From contig CACHIV010000003.1 of the NCBI GenBank assembly GCA_902579985.1, positions 51,194 to 115,193 on the forward strand: a stretch of 64,000 bases of DNA, given 5' to 3'. Below, piece after piece: positions 56,574 through 64,000 of this stretch. This DNA comes from an uncultured Pelagibacteraceae bacterium. GTDB lineage: Bacteria > Pseudomonadota > Alphaproteobacteria > Pelagibacterales > Pelagibacteraceae. Position 1 is the stretch's first letter. Each line of letters starts with the position of its first letter. Below the pieces are notes generated by a model. That model did no database searches. It was not told the DNA's origin and saw only the letters and a program-made list of their open reading frames with translations. Both the position numbers and the translations under genes were made by a program.

Positions 56574-57668
56574 TTAAACTTTATTTATAATATTTTCTAA
56601 TTCTACAAGCGTTTTTTTTTTATTAAATCTATTGAGTGAATTAAAACCTTTCTTCGCTTTATTAATTGCATGATTATAATTCTTTACAATATTTATTATT
56701 TGTTTTTTAAAACTTTTATCACTACCAGGTTTATATAAATAACCAAATTTTCCATTTTGAAAAATATAATCGCTTAAACCAACTTTTGTTGGTGCTAAGC
56801 AAGGTATCTTATAAGAGAGAGCTTCTCCTAAAATATTTGGTGTGCCATCATATTTTGATGTGACACAAACTAAATCGATTATCTTATGTAATTTAACAAG
56901 AGGATTTTCTACATATCCATAATATTTAATATTTTTAGAAAATTTTTTTGAAATTTTTTTCATTTCATTTAAACAATTACCTTTGCCAACAATATGAATT
57001 TTATATTTATCAAAATTATTTAGGTCAATTAAGTTTCTAATAAAAAAAATTGGATCTTTATCATAAACTAATCTACCTATGAAGAAAATATTATAACTCT
57101 TTTTAACTTTTTTTTTACCATAATTTTTTGGGAAAAAATTATAAACAACTTTTACATTTTTTATATTTAAATTCTTTTTAAAATGATTCTTATTATCTTC
57201 TGAAAAGGTAATTACCATATCTGAATATTTATAAAATTTAATAATAAATTTTTTAAAAAAATGTTTTTTATTTATGTATTTTGACTCGTATTTGTTCTTA
57301 GTATTTGAAATAGCCGTTGGTGTTCTAATAACCAACTTTTTTTTTAGTCCTAAAAATTTAAGTATTAATAAAAAGAAATGATCCTGAAGTGAAAAAATTA
57401 TAGTATCTTGTTTTAAAATTTTAAGTAATAATAAAGTACAAATTAAATTATTTAAAATTCTAAATCTATTTAGAAAATTAATTTTAAAATTAATTATTTT
57501 AACTTTTTTACTTATTAATCTTAATCTTTTTATATTAAAAGTATTAGTGACTAAAACTACTTCATTATTTATTGAAAAATGATTGAGATAGTTAATTAAT
57601 GTTTTTTCTATACCACCATCTGAAATTTGGGGACAAAAAAAAACTATTCTTTTTTTATTCTTACTCAA
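56574..57668 (-). CDS. Glycosyltransferase family 4-like
   Basis: 'NIFFIGRLVYDKDPIFFIRNLI', 'TSKYDGTPNILGEALSYKIPCLAP'. Confidence 0.88.
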   Translation of the reverse strand: MSKNKKRIVFFCPQISDGGIEKTLINYLNHFSINNEVVLVTNTFNIKRLRLISKKVKIINFKINFLNRFRILNNLICTLLLLKILKQDTIIFSLQDHFFLLILKFLGLKKKLVIRTPTAISNTKNKYESKYINKKHFFKKFIIKFYKYSDMVITFSEDNKNHFKKNLNIKNVKVVYNFFPKNYGKKKVKKSYNIFFIGRLVYDKDPIFFIRNLIDLNNFDKYKIHIVGKGNCLNEMKKISKKFSKNIKYYGYVENPLVKLHKIIDLVCVTSKYDGTPNILGEALSYKIPCLAPTKVGLSDYIFQNGKFGYLYKPGSDKSFKKQIINIVKNYNHAINKAKKGFNSLNRFNKKKTLVELENIINKV

Positions 57669-58660
57669 TTTTGCTTATAAATATTATTGTCTATCAAATA
57701 CTTAACGTATTTTTTTACACCAATTTTTAAACTATGTTTTGGACTAAAGTTTAAAAGTTTCTTAGCTTTATTAATCGACAAAGTTCCTCTACTAGGTTTT
57801 GTAATATCTCTTTTTTTTATTTTGAATTTTAAATTTGGAAACATTTTTTTTAAATTCATAACAAATGAATATAATGTTTGAGCTTTACCGTAAGTAATAT
57901 TAAATATTTGATTAACACCTTTATCCTTAGTTGCAGCTAAAACACACCCTTTTGCTAAATCCTCTATATAAGTAAAATCTAATTTTTCATTTTTTCCCTC
58001 TATTTTAATTAATTTGTCTGTAAAGGCATTTTCAATAAAAATTTGTGAAACCCTTCTATTCATATCAGTTGGTCCATAAACAGCTGAAGGTCTAATTATT
58101 GTGTAAGGAATTTTATTTAAAACACTTATTCCTTTAGTTATAATCTCACCTGCAAGCTTCATTGTTCCGTAAGCCTCCTTTGGATTTACAGGACTTGTTT
58201 CATTAACTTTATTAGAATTAAAATCTCCATAAACCATACTGGAAGATATGTATATAAATCTTTTGCATCTGTAATTCTTTTTTATCTTTTGAAGTAAAGC
58301 TATTGCATCAAGTAAATTTACTGTAGAATCAATAGATCCAATCTTTGCTTCATCAGTATTTAAATTATCAAGCTTAGCGAGAGGTAATGCAGCTGTATGA
58401 AATATAATTTCAGGTCTATGTTTTTTGATAATTTCAAATACTGATTTAAAATTATTAGTATCACATCTTTCAATTATTTTATTTTCGATAAGATCTAATC
58501 TTTTTTTTCTATAATCATAAAAATTTTTTTTTGAAGGATTCATATATCCACCAAAATTATCTAATAAAACGCATTTTTTAACTTTCTTTCTTCTTAATAA
58601 ATCGATAGCTATATGTGTTCCGATAAAACCCAGTCCGCCTGTTATTAATGCTGTCTTCAT
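57665..58660 (-). CDS. NAD-dependent sugar-nucleotide epimerase/dehydratase (extended SDR)
   Basis: 'ALITGGLGFIGTHIAIDLLR', 'YGTMKLAGE', 'IIRPSAVYGP'. Confidence 0.9.
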   Translation of the reverse strand: MKTALITGGLGFIGTHIAIDLLRRKKVKKCVLLDNFGGYMNPSKKNFYDYRKKRLDLIENKIIERCDTNNFKSVFEIIKKHRPEIIFHTAALPLAKLDNLNTDEAKIGSIDSTVNLLDAIALLQKIKKNYRCKRFIYISSSMVYGDFNSNKVNETSPVNPKEAYGTMKLAGEIITKGISVLNKIPYTIIRPSAVYGPTDMNRRVSQIFIENAFTDKLIKIEGKNEKLDFTYIEDLAKGCVLAATKDKGVNQIFNITYGKAQTLYSFVMNLKKMFPNLKFKIKKRDITKPSRGTLSINKAKKLLNFSPKHSLKIGVKKYVKYLIDNNIYKQN

Positions 58661-59769
58661 AAATTCAATGTTGAAATAAACTTTTTAATATTTGAAATGA
58701 CATAATTTACTTGTTTTTTTTTCATATCAGGAAATATAGGTAAAGTAACTATTTCTTTTGATAAAATATCTGTTTTTGGTAATTTTTTTTTATAATAAGA
58801 TTTTAAGTATTTTTGTTCATGAAGAGGTGGATCAAAGTGGACTGATACTTCAATATTTTTACGTCTCATAAAATCTAAAAAATTAGTACGATATTTTTTT
58901 GGAACTCTTACAGTATACATTTGATAAGAATGACTAAAATTTTTAGAAACTTTTTGTAAAATAAAAAAATTATTGAATTTAGATAGCTCTTTATCATAAA
59001 TTTTAGCTATTTTTCTTCTCTTTTTATTGAATAAATCTAATTTTTTCAATTGTGACAAACCAAGGGCTGCGAGGTGATTAGGTAACCTATAATTATGACC
59101 TGGTAATGATGACTCCCTATGCCAAAAATTTTTTTTTAAACTTTTATCTATTCCGTGAGCTATTATTTTTTTAGCTTTATCAAATAATTTTTTATCTTGG
59201 AAAGTTAACATTCCACCTTCTGTCGTAGTTATATTTTTTGTGGGAAAAAAAGAAAAACATCCTAGTCCAAAAGAGCCAGTATATTTATTTTTATATTTTG
59301 CACCTAAAGTTTCAGCGCTATCTTCAATTAATTTCAGTTTATATTTTTTACAGATTTTTATGATTTCGTTCATATCACACGGCAACCCTGCAAAATGAAC
59401 TATAATTATAGCTACAGTCTTTTTTGTAATATTTTTAACTATACTTTTAGGATCTATATTTCGTGAATTTAATTCAATATCTGCAAAGACTGGTTTACAT
59501 CCTGAATTAAGAATTGCATTAGCTGTTGAGACCCATGTAAAACTTGGAATAATTATTTCTCCCTTTAACTCTTGACATTTAATAGCACACTCTAAGGCAC
59601 TAGTGCATGAGTTCATTGATAACGAATAAGGTATCCTAAATTTATTACTAAACAATTTTTCAAATTTTATATTAAATGGTCCATGTGTTAACCATGGAGA
59701 TTTTAATGATCTTGAAATGATTTTAAGCTCATTACTGTCAATGCTTGGTTTGCATAAAGGGATTTGCAT
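58657..59769 (-). CDS. DegT/DnrJ/EryC1/StrS family sugar aminotransferase
   Basis: 'IIPSFTWVSTANAILNSGCKPVFADIE', 'LIEDSAETLGAKYKNKYTGSFGLGCFSFFPTKNITTTEGGM'. Confidence 0.92.
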   Translation of the reverse strand: MQIPLCKPSIDSNELKIISRSLKSPWLTHGPFNIKFEKLFSNKFRIPYSLSMNSCTSALECAIKCQELKGEIIIPSFTWVSTANAILNSGCKPVFADIELNSRNIDPKSIVKNITKKTVAIIIVHFAGLPCDMNEIIKICKKYKLKLIEDSAETLGAKYKNKYTGSFGLGCFSFFPTKNITTTEGGMLTFQDKKLFDKAKKIIAHGIDKSLKKNFWHRESSLPGHNYRLPNHLAALGLSQLKKLDLFNKKRRKIAKIYDKELSKFNNFFILQKVSKNFSHSYQMYTVRVPKKYRTNFLDFMRRKNIEVSVHFDPPLHEQKYLKSYYKKKLPKTDILSKEIVTLPIFPDMKKKQVNYVISNIKKFISTLNL

Positions 59770-59798: not shown

Positions 59799-60896
59799 TT
59801 AAAAATTGTTAAGTACAAAATTTAAATATTGTTTACAATTGATTTTATAGTCAAATCGACCTAAGAATTTAGAGCCTATTTTGATCTTTTTGGAAATATT
59901 TTTTTTATTATTATAATAATTATTAATTAAATAAGCTAATTTTTTAGAATCACCAATCTTGATTAAGTCTCCAGCCATTCCATTCAATAATATTTCTTTT
60001 GGTCCAGTTGGGCAATCAGTAGAAATTATATATTTTTTTAAAAATTGAGCTTCAATAAGAATATTAGGTAAACCCTCAAATTTAGATGTTAATATTAAAA
60101 TATTTGATTGTTTAATATAAATATAAGGATTGTTTAAGTAACCAGTAAATTTAACAATTTTTTGTAATTTATTTTCAATAGTATAATTTTTAAGATCATT
60201 TAGATTATTTCCCTTTCCTACTATCATCAATCTAGGTTTTAGTTTTGGATTAATAAAATTTAAAGATCTTAATAAGGTTAGGTGATCTTTTTGATCTGTT
60301 AATCGTCCAACAGAAATTAAGTTTAAATTTTTTTTTTTAAAAAAATCTAATTTTTTTTTAATAAAAATTTTTTTTTTAATTAAAGACTTATCAAATGGAT
60401 TAAGAATACATTTTGTTTTTATTTTAAAAGTTTTTAAAAATTCTTTTTGAAAAGATTTTGAATTTACCATTATATCATCAGCTAAATTTAAAAAAAATTT
60501 ATAAAAAAACAATTTTATAGGATTTTTAGACCATCCTGAAGGGGATGTGTTTGATCTGGTAATAACTTTTGTATTTAATATTTTTGATAATATGATTGCA
60601 TAAATATTTGCTTGAAATGCAAAAACAAGTATTTTTTCTTTTTTAAATAATAAATTTTTAAATAAAATTGATAAGCAAACTAAGTATTTCAATTTTTTAT
60701 TACAATTTTGCCAAAACTTACTTTTTGTACCTATAAATTTAATATTTTTATTAAATTTATTATTATAATTATCATTACAAGTAAGAATTTGAATATTTTT
60801 AATTTTTTTACTAAGGTAATTTACAACTGTAAATAAATTTTTTTCTACACCTCCATCTTCTATTGAAGGAATAAAGATTATTAGTTTATTTTTCAT
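59799..60896 (-). CDS. Glycosyltransferase family 4-like
   Basis: 'LISVGRLTDQKDHLTLLRSL', 'TSKFEGLPNILIEAQFLKKYIISTDCPTGPKEIL'. Confidence 0.9.
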   Translation of the reverse strand: MKNKLIIFIPSIEDGGVEKNLFTVVNYLSKKIKNIQILTCNDNYNNKFNKNIKFIGTKSKFWQNCNKKLKYLVCLSILFKNLLFKKEKILVFAFQANIYAIILSKILNTKVITRSNTSPSGWSKNPIKLFFYKFFLNLADDIMVNSKSFQKEFLKTFKIKTKCILNPFDKSLIKKKIFIKKKLDFFKKKNLNLISVGRLTDQKDHLTLLRSLNFINPKLKPRLMIVGKGNNLNDLKNYTIENKLQKIVKFTGYLNNPYIYIKQSNILILTSKFEGLPNILIEAQFLKKYIISTDCPTGPKEILLNGMAGDLIKIGDSKKLAYLINNYYNNKKNISKKIKIGSKFLGRFDYKINCKQYLNFVLNNF

Positions 60897-60967: not shown

Positions 60968-61043
60968 GCCCTTGTAGCTCAGCTGGTAGAGCAATTGATT
61001 TGTAATCAATAGGTCCGCGGTTCGACTCCGTGCGGGGGCACCA
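60968..61043 (+). tRNA. tRNA-Thr (anticodon TGT), encoded CCA
   Basis: GCCCTTGTAGCTCAGCTGGTAGAGC...TTTGTAA...GGTTCGACTCC...GGGGGCACCA. Confidence 0.95.
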
Positions 61044-61787
61044 TCATTTTTTATTTCTGATAATCAAATTGTTGTAGGCAAAACTTGTAGTTCCAGTTTC
61101 ACCTATTCTATAAATTCCAATTTTTATATATGGTTTGGACGATCCATAAGGTCCATCAGTATTCTTTTTTAATAATGGAACATTTAGGTGTTGTGCAATT
61201 AGTTCATTATTCAAATAATATTTAACTGATAAGTTTTTTGCTTTTTTTTGATAATTAATATCAGCTTTAAATCTATATTTTGTATCAGGCTTTAAATATG
61301 ATTTTTTAAATACTTTACAATTATCTGATGAACATTCTCCTTTTGGAAACTTATATTTAATTTTCCAATCCATTCCAACACCTATCCATGATGGTGGAGC
61401 GCCTTTGTTTCTTCCATCATGAATTTGAAAAACAGTTGATCTATATTGCGGTGCTCCTACGATATAAATATCTGTTTCAAATATCGTTTGTCCTATCGGT
61501 AATCTATGAGTGATTTCTTGTCTTCCCGAGTAGTCATATTTATATGCAGGTTTTTTATCTGTGGGACAACTTCCTACATCACCTTTATCAAGTTTAAATA
61601 CTACACTTTCTAATTTAAATTCTTTTTTTTTAACAAAATTTGTTTTTGGCTTTCCATTAACTACTAAAGACTCTTTATCAACGATTCCACACGAAATTTT
61701 CCACTTATTTCTAACTTTCCAATCAGCTGCAAATGAGCTCACACTAAACAATAAACTCAGAACTACGATCCCTAAAATTTTTTCCAT
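61044..61787 (-). CDS. Secreted concanavalin-like jelly-roll protein, candidate polysaccharide lyase (heparin/alginate-lyase-like fold)
   Basis: Signal peptide 'MEKILGIVVLSLLFSVSSFAA'; 'TVFQIHDGRNKGAPPSWIGV' and 'YIKIGIYRIGETGTTSFAYNNLII' resemble QIH and YxKxGxY motifs of PL7/heparin-lyase-like folds. Confidence 0.55.
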   Translation of the reverse strand: MEKILGIVVLSLLFSVSSFAADWKVRNKWKISCGIVDKESLVVNGKPKTNFVKKKEFKLESVVFKLDKGDVGSCPTDKKPAYKYDYSGRQEITHRLPIGQTIFETDIYIVGAPQYRSTVFQIHDGRNKGAPPSWIGVGMDWKIKYKFPKGECSSDNCKVFKKSYLKPDTKYRFKADINYQKKAKNLSVKYYLNNELIAQHLNVPLLKKNTDGPYGSSKPYIKIGIYRIGETGTTSFAYNNLIIRNKK

Positions 61788-62989
61788 CTATCTAAAAGAT
61801 AATGAAATTCATTTAATATTTTTTCGTAATTAATCTTAAAATCTTCTTCATTACAAACTGATTTATAATATTCAAAATTTTTATTAGTTATTTTTTCTAC
61901 TTTTTCATTATCAAAACAAATATCTAATTTTTTATATAAGTCCTCAGGGGATGAAATGTCTATTTCAATTAAATGATTATTAATTTCATCATCTGGGATC
62001 AAATTTTTTGTATAAAATATTATTTTTTTGAAAAAAAATGACTCATAAATAGGTAAATTTGTAGGGCCACAAAAGGTTGGCATTACTACAGCATTACAAT
62101 TTGTGTATAAAGAAATAACTTCATCATCACTTAAAAAGTTAAATATCTTTATATAATTGTTTAATTCATTTTTTAATATTAACTCTTTTATATAATCATA
62201 ATTACCCTTATTTCCTCCACAAAAAATAAATAAATACTTTTCTTTTTTTTCAGATTTCAAAATTTTAGCAACATCAATTATATACTTATGATTTTTATGG
62301 GCCCAAAATTGAGCAGGATAAAAAATAATTTTTTTATGTTCAGGTATTTTAAACTTAAGAAAAATTTCTTTATATTTATGTAAATCATGTTTATTTTCTT
62401 TATAAATAGTAGGTAGCATTGGAATAAAATTTTGAATACATATTTTGTCATCTGGTGTTTTATAGAAATTTATTAAATCTTGTTTATTGGATTTATGTGG
62501 AACTATTATTTTAAAAGCTCTAGTAGTAATTTCTTTAAAGAGTTTCTCTTTAATTTCATAGGTATTATTTACATTATGTTCTGGAAACTGACTATTTTTC
62601 TTATGATCTAAATCCCAAATATTTGAAATAAATCCAACTTCTTTACAAAATTTAGACATTTGGGAAGGACCTAAAAATATTATTAGATCATACTTATTTT
62701 TTTTAATAAAATTATAAAAAGGGTGATTAATCTTAATTTTATTTAGAAAATCATTTAAAGAATTTATTTCAAATAACTGAGAAAAATAATTAGATAATTT
62801 ATTTTGTTCAAATAATCTATTTTTAATTTTTTTTTCTAAAAGATATTCTTTAGTTTTTTTCTTTGTAATAATTAATTCAATTTCATTATTATATTTTTTT
62901 ATATCAAAAAGTAATAAAGATGATTTAAGAGATTGAAAAAAACCTCCTCCCATATCTGGAGATCCCTCTAAATAGATACCAATTTTCAT
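61772..62989 (-). CDS. Glycosyltransferase (group 1-like)
   Basis: 'KKIIFYPAQFWAHKNHKYIIDVAKIL', 'VVMPTFCGPTNLPIYESFFFKKIIFY'. Confidence 0.82.
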   Translation of the reverse strand: MKIGIYLEGSPDMGGGFFQSLKSSLLLFDIKKYNNEIELIITKKKTKEYLLEKKIKNRLFEQNKLSNYFSQLFEINSLNDFLNKIKINHPFYNFIKKNKYDLIIFLGPSQMSKFCKEVGFISNIWDLDHKKNSQFPEHNVNNTYEIKEKLFKEITTRAFKIIVPHKSNKQDLINFYKTPDDKICIQNFIPMLPTIYKENKHDLHKYKEIFLKFKIPEHKKIIFYPAQFWAHKNHKYIIDVAKILKSEKKEKYLFIFCGGNKGNYDYIKELILKNELNNYIKIFNFLSDDEVISLYTNCNAVVMPTFCGPTNLPIYESFFFKKIIFYTKNLIPDDEINNHLIEIDISSPEDLYKKLDICFDNEKVEKITNKNFEYYKSVCNEEDFKINYEKILNEFHYLLDRWKKF

Positions 62990-64000
62990 TTATTTATTTT
63001 CAACATTTAACATTTTTTTTAGATTCAATAAATTTTGTTCAATTGATCTTTTAAAAAATTTGATTCTTTCAGATCGTAATAAGCTTATTTTATTTGAATA
63101 AAATTCAATTTGTTTATTAATAGAATAAATTTCTTCATTTAAATTGTCAATATTTTGAACAATCTTTCCTAATTTAACTCTATCTTTAAAAAAGAAAAGA
63201 TCATTAAAATTACTTTTTAAAAGATTATTTTCATTTTTTGAAAAAAATATAACTGGTCGTAATTTTGAAAAAGCATAAGTGTAGGCTGTGCCTGAAAAAT
63301 CAGTTACTAAAATCCTAGATTTCTTGTAACTATCTAAATAAGAAATATTAGAATCTAAACTAAAATTCTTATTATTTTTATATTTTTCATAAATATTATT
63401 AATAATAAAACTTTTCTTAATGTTTGCTCTATCTACTGGATGTGGTCTATAAATTATTTTAAAATGAGTATTATGTAATATTTCATTGATTAAACTATCT
63501 AAAACTTCATCTAAATTATATTCATATAACATAGAAGATAAGGTTGGGGCCAACAGTATTGAATCTTCTTGAGTTTTGTCATTTTTAAGTTTTTCGTACA
63601 CATGATCTAATTTTAAATACCCAGTGTTAATTAATAATGGTTTATTAATTTGAATATTAGATTCAGTGTATTGATTAAATTTTTTTTGAAGTGAAGAAAT
63701 TGCTATTTCTGAGGATAAAAAAATATAATTACATTTATTTAAAGCATTTATTAAATTTTTTTCTTTTTCAAGATTAACCATTGGAGTGTCATAAATATCG
63801 TGATTTATATATATTTTGTTTAGTGACTCTGGAAAGTCATAAACAACATAACTACTTAAAAAAATATCTATAGATTTTATAAATTTTAAATAACCAAGAT
63901 TTATAAAAAAAGCTTTTTCATAATTTTTAACTTCATTTGATGACCCAAGATTATAACCTAAAATCACTTCAATATTTTTTTCTTTTTTAATTTCATCAAT
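62990..64000 (-). CDS. CDP-glycerol glycerophosphotransferase-like (TagB/TagF-type) protein, truncated by right edge
   Basis: 'FKIIYRPHPVDRANIKK', 'SRILVTDFSGTAYTYAFSKLRPVIFFS'. The frame stays open past the GTG at 63967 to the window end. Confidence 0.72.
   Translation of the reverse strand: MDEIKKEKNIEVILGYNLGSSNEVKNYEKAFFINLGYLKFIKSIDIFLSSYVVYDFPESLNKIYINHDIYDTPMVNLEKEKNLINALNKCNYIFLSSEIAISSLQKKFNQYTESNIQINKPLLINTGYLKLDHVYEKLKNDKTQEDSILLAPTLSSMLYEYNLDEVLDSLINEILHNTHFKIIYRPHPVDRANIKKSFIINNIYEKYKNNKNFSLDSNISYLDSYKKSRILVTDFSGTAYTYAFSKLRPVIFFSKNENNLLKSNFNDLFFFKDRVKLGKIVQNIDNLNEEIYSINKQIEFYSNKISLLRSERIKFFKRSIEQNLLNLKKMLNVENK

Follow-up and report, generated by a model that had tools for sequence, protein, structure and literature searches.

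A polysaccharide lyase-like gene of SAR11 in a probable mobile cassette that begins with a shared 39-nt element

Introduction

A gene in a 1.16 Mb Pelagibacteraceae (SAR11) assembly probably encodes a secreted PF14099/PL7/PL20-like lyase within a mobile SAR11 cassette that starts with a shared 39-nt element. It was found in a 64,000-nt stretch of DNA, the window, whose end at 64000 is also the end of the contig. The leader element is shared by many genes and conserved as DNA, and computation establishes the fold family and the conserved residues of the lyase. The unusual part is the gene's setting: its joint element also encodes a signal peptide. This may, as a tentative proposal, represent a hitherto undescribed type of gene-cassette system in SAR11, in which a 39-nt joint doubles as start codon and signal peptide. 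No description of a joint element doubling as a signal peptide was found in the literature searched, which covered few subscription journals.

The gene and its neighbors

The original prediction described a signal-peptide open reading frame between a tRNA-Thr and a glycosyltransferase gene, and here ORF, translation and ARAGORN agree; the glycosyltransferase, aminotransferase and epimerase genes around it were likewise found by Pfam (Table 1). The overlap with the glycosyltransferase at 61772-62989 is exactly 16 nt, and the two motifs that had been pointed out, FQIH (residues 120-123) and YIKIGIYR (residues 220-227), are both present. At this junction the leader element contains the last codons and the stop (TAG) of the glycosyltransferase. 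The junction of the tRNA-Thr with the lyase was compared with six other genomes. The signal peptide ends in ...SVSSFA, followed by A. Homologues at 57-92% identity retain the same length and residues, and the reading frame is therefore taken to be a real gene.

Table 1. Features of the window, and related places and islands in other SAR11 sequences
Feature	Location	Strand	Basis or remark
Other glycosyltransferases	56574-57668 and 59799-60896		Pfam
Epimerase	57665-58660		Pfam
DegT aminotransferase	58657-59769		Pfam
tRNA-Thr (tgt)	60968..61043	+	ARAGORN; CCA end abuts lyase stop codon TGA
Lyase-like CDS	61044..61787	-	247 aa, ATG start, TGA stop; ORF and translation
Y220-R227 codons (YIKIGIYR)	61107..61130	-	Y226 is predicted catalytic tyrosine; strand 220-228
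Q121-I122-H123 codons	61419..61427	-	Predicted carboxylate neutralizer and base; strand 116-123
R89-Q90-E91 codons	61515..61523	-	R89 is predicted carboxylate-binding arginine; strand 87-95
Signal-peptide coding part	61728..61787	-	MEKILGIVVLSLLFSVSSFA; sequence and hydrophobic helix 2-26 in both models
Decayed leader element copy	61749..61787	-	5 mismatches in 39 vs. ATGAAAAAACTTTTAGGGATCGTGGTTCTGGGTTTGTTG; pattern search and shuffles
Glycosyltransferase upstream of lyase	61772..62989	-	ORF; Glycos_transf_1 E=5.6e-19
Glyphos_transf protein	62990-63967		Pfam
Lyase in hisH-hisA gap	L018, L020, L021, L022, L027
Lyase beside umuDC and GFA gene	L012, L016, L025, L029		Nearby in L023, L024, L026
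Lyase between purC- and purQ-like genes	L017
Lyase near rho- and hem-like genes	L014, L015
Lyase beside fumarase-like gene	L011
Lyase in island near pst-like genes	L010
Lyase elsewhere	L013, L019, L133
Small tRNA-Leu(taa) islands	L010:5953-10040; also L092, L119, L124, L125, L126, L128
Direct-repeat pairs, 11-12-nt period	L010 6147, 9923; L161 242, 1585; L128 2145, 5094; L019 11390-13459

Protein family and fold

In a Pfam scan the window protein matched PF14099 (Polysacc_lyase) with E=1.4e-4 and 22.2 bits, under the curated cut-off of 29.9 bits, and it is therefore named PF14099-like rather than filed as a member. PF14099 matched 16 of 16 close-family proteins tested (the window protein and 15 homologues), with a best E of 1.7e-7, and no other family matched these proteins consistently. 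The close family aligned by hhalign with a set of SAR11 PF14099 proteins at probability 94 and E 1e-7. A profile from a wide alignment that includes clear SAR11 PF14099 proteins (A2) matched the glucuronan lyase (PL20) 2zzj with an E of 1.3e-8 and, at 1e-4, heparin lyase I. Neither phmmer with the single protein nor the close-family profile (A1) found a match among PDB sequences.

The two AlphaFold models agree, with moderate pLDDT values of 75.8 and 74.5; adding divergent rows for the second of them brought no gain in confidence. After the signal peptide the models, of moderate quality, are all-beta and have the form of a beta-jelly-roll. Top Foldseek matches include the glucuronan lyase 7nde and PL7 alginate lyases (lyases among the matches were 7nde, 7w13, 3zpy and 1uai) at TM values of only about 0.5; lectins, carbohydrate-recognition domains, GH131 and other jelly rolls rank about equally high. 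The structural comparison that the original prediction called for thus returned lyases among the top matches but did not discriminate, since lectins score alike. On these models the fold alone cannot tell lyase from lectin: the fold says jelly roll, and the residues and profiles say lyase.

With PF14099, PL20 (2ZZJ), PL13 heparin lyase I (3IKW) and PL7, the window protein shares a predicted jelly roll and secretion. The RxE, QxH and YxKxGxY strand motifs of PF14099/PL7/PL13/PL20 lyases are common to it as well, and PL7 and PL20 lyases are of similar size. It differs from these enzymes in its Pfam score, in its identity to solved lyases of about 10-16%, and in being carried on a mobile SAR11 cassette. 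Profiles and models together point to a divergent, new lyase-like member of a known jelly-roll fold family. Some other SAR11 PF14099-like lyases (L007:1303-2232, L014:2743-3831) are extended at the C terminus by some 60 aa that look alike.

Predicted active site

Past the start, the only invariant residues in alignment A2 are F64, R89, E91, Q121, G224 and Y226. R89, E91, Q121 and Y226 are unchanged across relatives about 20% identical. Q121 is invariant in A1, A2 and A4, R89 and E91 in A2 and A4, and H123 in the close family (A1) and A4 but not in A2. The motifs noticed originally correspond to Q121-x-H123 and Y-x-K-x-G-x-Y226; a third strand motif, R89-x-E91, was absent from that list. In the models the conserved residues fall on predicted strands 87-95, 116-123 and 220-228, where PL7-type enzymes carry them. 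With the PF14099 matches of the close family and the profile matches to PL20 and heparin lyase I, the conservation of R, Q, H and Y upholds the view of the protein as a jelly-roll lyase-like one.

These residues bear on the possibility that the protein is a non-catalytic, lectin-like jelly-roll sugar binder whose lyase activity has been lost. Such a protein would fit the Foldseek list, in which lectins and carbohydrate-recognition domains come only just below the lyases, and the PF14099 score under the cut-off. It is nevertheless improbable, given that R89, E91, Q121 and Y226 are invariant at about 20% identity, on strands as in PL7-type enzymes, and that H123 is kept throughout the close family.

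As a lyase, the protein probably cuts acidic sugar chains, to judge from its sequence. The most likely reaction would be cleavage of a uronic-acid-containing polysaccharide by beta-elimination, in which R89 and Q121 would neutralize the carboxylate, and H123 and Y226 would serve as base and acid. This prediction is drawn from the known chemistry of jelly-roll lyases. The enzyme would be located in the periplasm or outside the cell.

Genomic placement of the lyase

The window lyase is rare, being present in 8 of 297 family genomes. Across the order, 120 of 297 genomes carry PF14099 genes of some kind (114 above the cut-off), and the earlier suggestion that such a gene is unusual for an oligotroph is thus not supported. 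The homologues occupy about nine unrelated places, mostly core operons or small islands (Table 1); their neighbors are often other PF14099 lyases and rarely glycosyltransferases. The his and umu/GFA neighbors were checked with Pfam, and the remaining neighbors were recognized by eye. The lyase gene often abuts its neighbors or overlaps them by 4 nt. In most genomes checked hisH and hisA are adjacent, with a gap of mostly 2-15 nt. A different PF14099 lyase was seen within this gap at G043:C1:595372-596061 (L059, L065), which indicates that the gap is a repeated insertion place for lyases. One lyase copy between hisH and hisA, L022:8001-8618 (AG-365-A04), has an early stop that leaves 205 aa, and may be broken.

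The tree of the lyase family, which is weakly supported and resolved, requires 12 changes for 11 places. The nearest relative of the window lyase is that of L010 (89.8% identity in mature DNA), which shares a tRNA-Leu island with a protease and a further pair of PF14099 lyases. In a comparison of the lyase with core genes, meant to look for transfer across genera, a TrmE-type protein was 73% identical and the lyase about 80%; the genome concerned, G010, has 8% contamination. No relatives of the lyase were found in viral contigs or phage records, and a phage-borne origin was dropped for this reason. The leader alone gave only a short chance match to phage records.

The original prediction raised the possibility that the protein is a dedicated periplasmic enzyme that trims or releases the neighboring surface glycan, as AlgL does in alginate export. 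AlgL itself is a PL5 enzyme with an alpha/alpha-barrel. The position of the window lyase among glycosyltransferase, aminotransferase and epimerase genes, with a 16-nt overlap with one of them, recalls AlgL-type lyases, and in L013 too a glycosyltransferase-like gene lies upstream. The likeness of a secreted lyase-like gene beside glycan assembly genes is confined to the window genome, and unlike AlgL-type lyases the window lyase has no conserved link to a synthesis or export operon across relatives. Nearly all other relatives adjoin his, umuDC/GFA, pur, hem/rho or pst genes or lyase cassettes. The gene's rarity in the family and the lack of any polymerase or export operon seen traveling with it also count against a trimming enzyme, and there is only a small chance that it is one. 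Homologues sit at about nine differing places, mostly inside housekeeping operons, so a dedicated glycan-cluster role is unlikely; this scatter comes close to the random placement in relatives that the original prediction had itself named as refuting. The window lyase is better described as a one-gene mobile cassette that belongs to the flexible gene pool of SAR11.

The leader element

The first 39 nt of the lyase gene match ATGAAAAAACTTTTAGGGATCGTGGTTCTGGGTTTGTTG with 5 differences. A search of the window allowing 3 mismatches in 30 nt found one copy, with 0 expected in shuffles, and this copy is the sole match to a loose leader pattern in its genome. It is a decayed copy, and there is no partner copy at the 3' end of the lyase. 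The same string starts many unrelated secreted-protein genes in SAR11 relatives. Its 33-nt core was found with at most 3 mismatches in 96 of 300 genus genomes, and the backwards control gave 0 hits. Another sample, overlapping the first in part, had the element in 55 of 198 family genomes and in five of nine genera, and a class-wide sample had it in 2 of 240 genomes, one of which was SAR11. After clustering of the mature parts, at least 51 unrelated families share it. In L122-L134 the cargo behind the element includes, besides lyases, proteins resembling alpha/beta-hydrolases and trypsin, lipoprotein-like leaders, and numerous small secreted proteins of unassigned family.

Rare codons are kept within the element: GGG in 45 of 47 copies (background 6.3%), ATC in 45 of 49 (8.4%), GTG in 37 of 41 (7.5%) and CTG in 42 of 51 (1.9%). 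Many of the copies behind these counts had been fetched by a DNA pattern, and the search was repeated with a fully synonymous-codon pattern. It gave 79 protein-level matches, of which 47 were letter-identical and 22 one base off. The expected letter-identical number, if codons were drawn by usage, is 3e-7, and the conservation is thus at the DNA level. An artefact of fetching by DNA pattern is ruled out by the fully synonymous search. Conservation begins sharply at the ATG and fades beyond base 39.

Joints and arrays

An ORF ends nearby upstream of 82 of 121 element copies. In 59 of these 82 the upstream stop overlaps the ATGA (35; an overlap of 4 nt), abuts the element (14) or overlaps it by one base (10). 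In L122 eleven copies within 10.7 kb separate unrelated genes. The element marks joints between cassettes in arrays, some within islands that end in half a tRNA-Leu.

A serious rival, though a less likely one, holds that selection on translation initiation or secretion, acting through the mRNA sequence or a rare-codon ramp, preserves the leader, which would then not be a recombination joint. It would account for the exact start of the conserved block at the ATG and for the fact that most copies are in frame with a plausible signal-peptide end, 96 of 121 being open for 60 codons or more. The other 25 run into an early stop after the element and encode no long protein; several of these, including some at array ends, are letter-perfect, which counts against this rival. 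The rival also fits poorly with copies that precede proteins with a start of their own (ammonium-transporter-like, isochorismatase-like), and most other secreted proteins of the same genomes do not use the element.

The window gene itself speaks against this rival, its leader and mature part having different nearest relatives. Against L013 the leader DNA is 90% identical and the mature part only 80.8%; against L010 the leader is 72% and the mature part 89.8% identical. By these comparisons the gene looks chimeric, with its leader closest to L013 and its mature part to L010, and we infer an exchange at or near the leader. Since the leaders of most homologues of the window lyase are unrelated to the element, the lyase can move without it.

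On the favored reading the element supplies an ATG and an export signal to the gene joined behind it, overlaps the stop codon of the preceding gene and marks the joint between cassettes. These may be exchanged by dedicated recombination at the element, via RecA or an unknown recombinase.

Islands, tRNA-Leu and repeats

The L010 block holds four genes: the nearest relative of the window lyase, a trypsin-like protease and two further lyases of the PF14099-like type. All but the lyase relative have strong element copies; its own copy is weaker. On the flanks of the block are half copies of tRNA-Leu, which cover the first 39-45 nt and break off in the anticodon loop, together with matching pairs of direct repeats whose period is 11 nt. 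Each of the small tRNA-Leu(taa) islands ends in a copy of the first 39-45 nt of the tRNA and its upstream region, and in some genomes such copies stand in tandem. Repeats with an 11-12-nt period stand just before (G)AGATAAA at island ends; 38 sites were counted, some of them due to chance, vs. 8 in the reversed sequence. The repeat sequence varies from block to block and tends to match at both ends of one (L010, L128, L161, L019).

A second integration place lies at L019:11160-13560, where truncated copies of the 5' end of a small conserved gene (NKENASKLWKIIQEAG...) recur between the inserted genes. A contig filed as viral, L162:270-360 (IMGVR_UViG_3300025425_002733), bears the element in near-perfect form together with 11-nt repeats and an array-end anchor; beside them are a 557-aa ORF without a Pfam match and a restriction-helicase.

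No recombinase was recognized among the array genes read, few of whose proteins were scanned with Pfam. For temperate pelagiphages, a putative attachment site made up of the first 34-46 nt of tRNA-Leu has been reported (PMC8163748, PMC3861242), so help from phage integrases is a possible route.

Relation to known systems

Integron cassettes and CALIN arrays also consist of tandem unrelated genes with one short site between them, and their gene content varies at fixed chromosomal places. On the strength of such arrays the element could be read as an attC site that an integron integrase moves, but this is very improbable. The SAR11 site is conserved in sequence, encodes an ATG and signal peptide, and overlaps the previous stop; no R'/R'' boxes (RYYYAAC / GTTRRRY) were seen by eye, and no integron integrase gene was recognized in the arrays read. 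A study of SAR11 hypervariable regions by Wilhelm et al. (2007; PMC2217521) detected no attC sites there.

Tycheposons and other tRNA islands of streamlined marine bacteria are likewise cargo islands at tRNA genes (PMC10872708), and half tRNA-Leu ends were found in L010, L092, L119, L124, L125, L126 and others. The SAR11 islands differ from tycheposons in being a few kb in size, without a recognized recombinase gene, in a duplicated tRNA-Leu 5' half that breaks off in the anticodon loop, and in a cargo of mainly leader-tagged secreted proteins. Filing the SAR11 cassettes with integron attC cassettes or with tycheposons was not adopted.

Implications for SAR11

SAR11 bacteria rank with the most abundant cells of the sea, and most mobile elements are believed to be missing from them. 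A 2007 study (PMC2217521) reported that individual genes occur between SAR11 core genes in some genomes and not in others, with no sequence signature or mechanism given, and their gain and loss has been left open since; for some of these single-gene insertions the present analysis identifies a joint element. A joint element with an exact sequence makes single-gene turnover testable by sequence search and experiment. If the proposed cassette system is real, any gene body joined to the 39-nt element would become an exported protein, and cassette arrays on small islands, some in tRNA-Leu, would feed single genes, the lyase among them, into core operons. It would show a streamlined cell sampling new secreted enzymes without keeping all of them, and since the enzymes sampled include polysaccharide lyases, this would bear on who degrades marine sugars.
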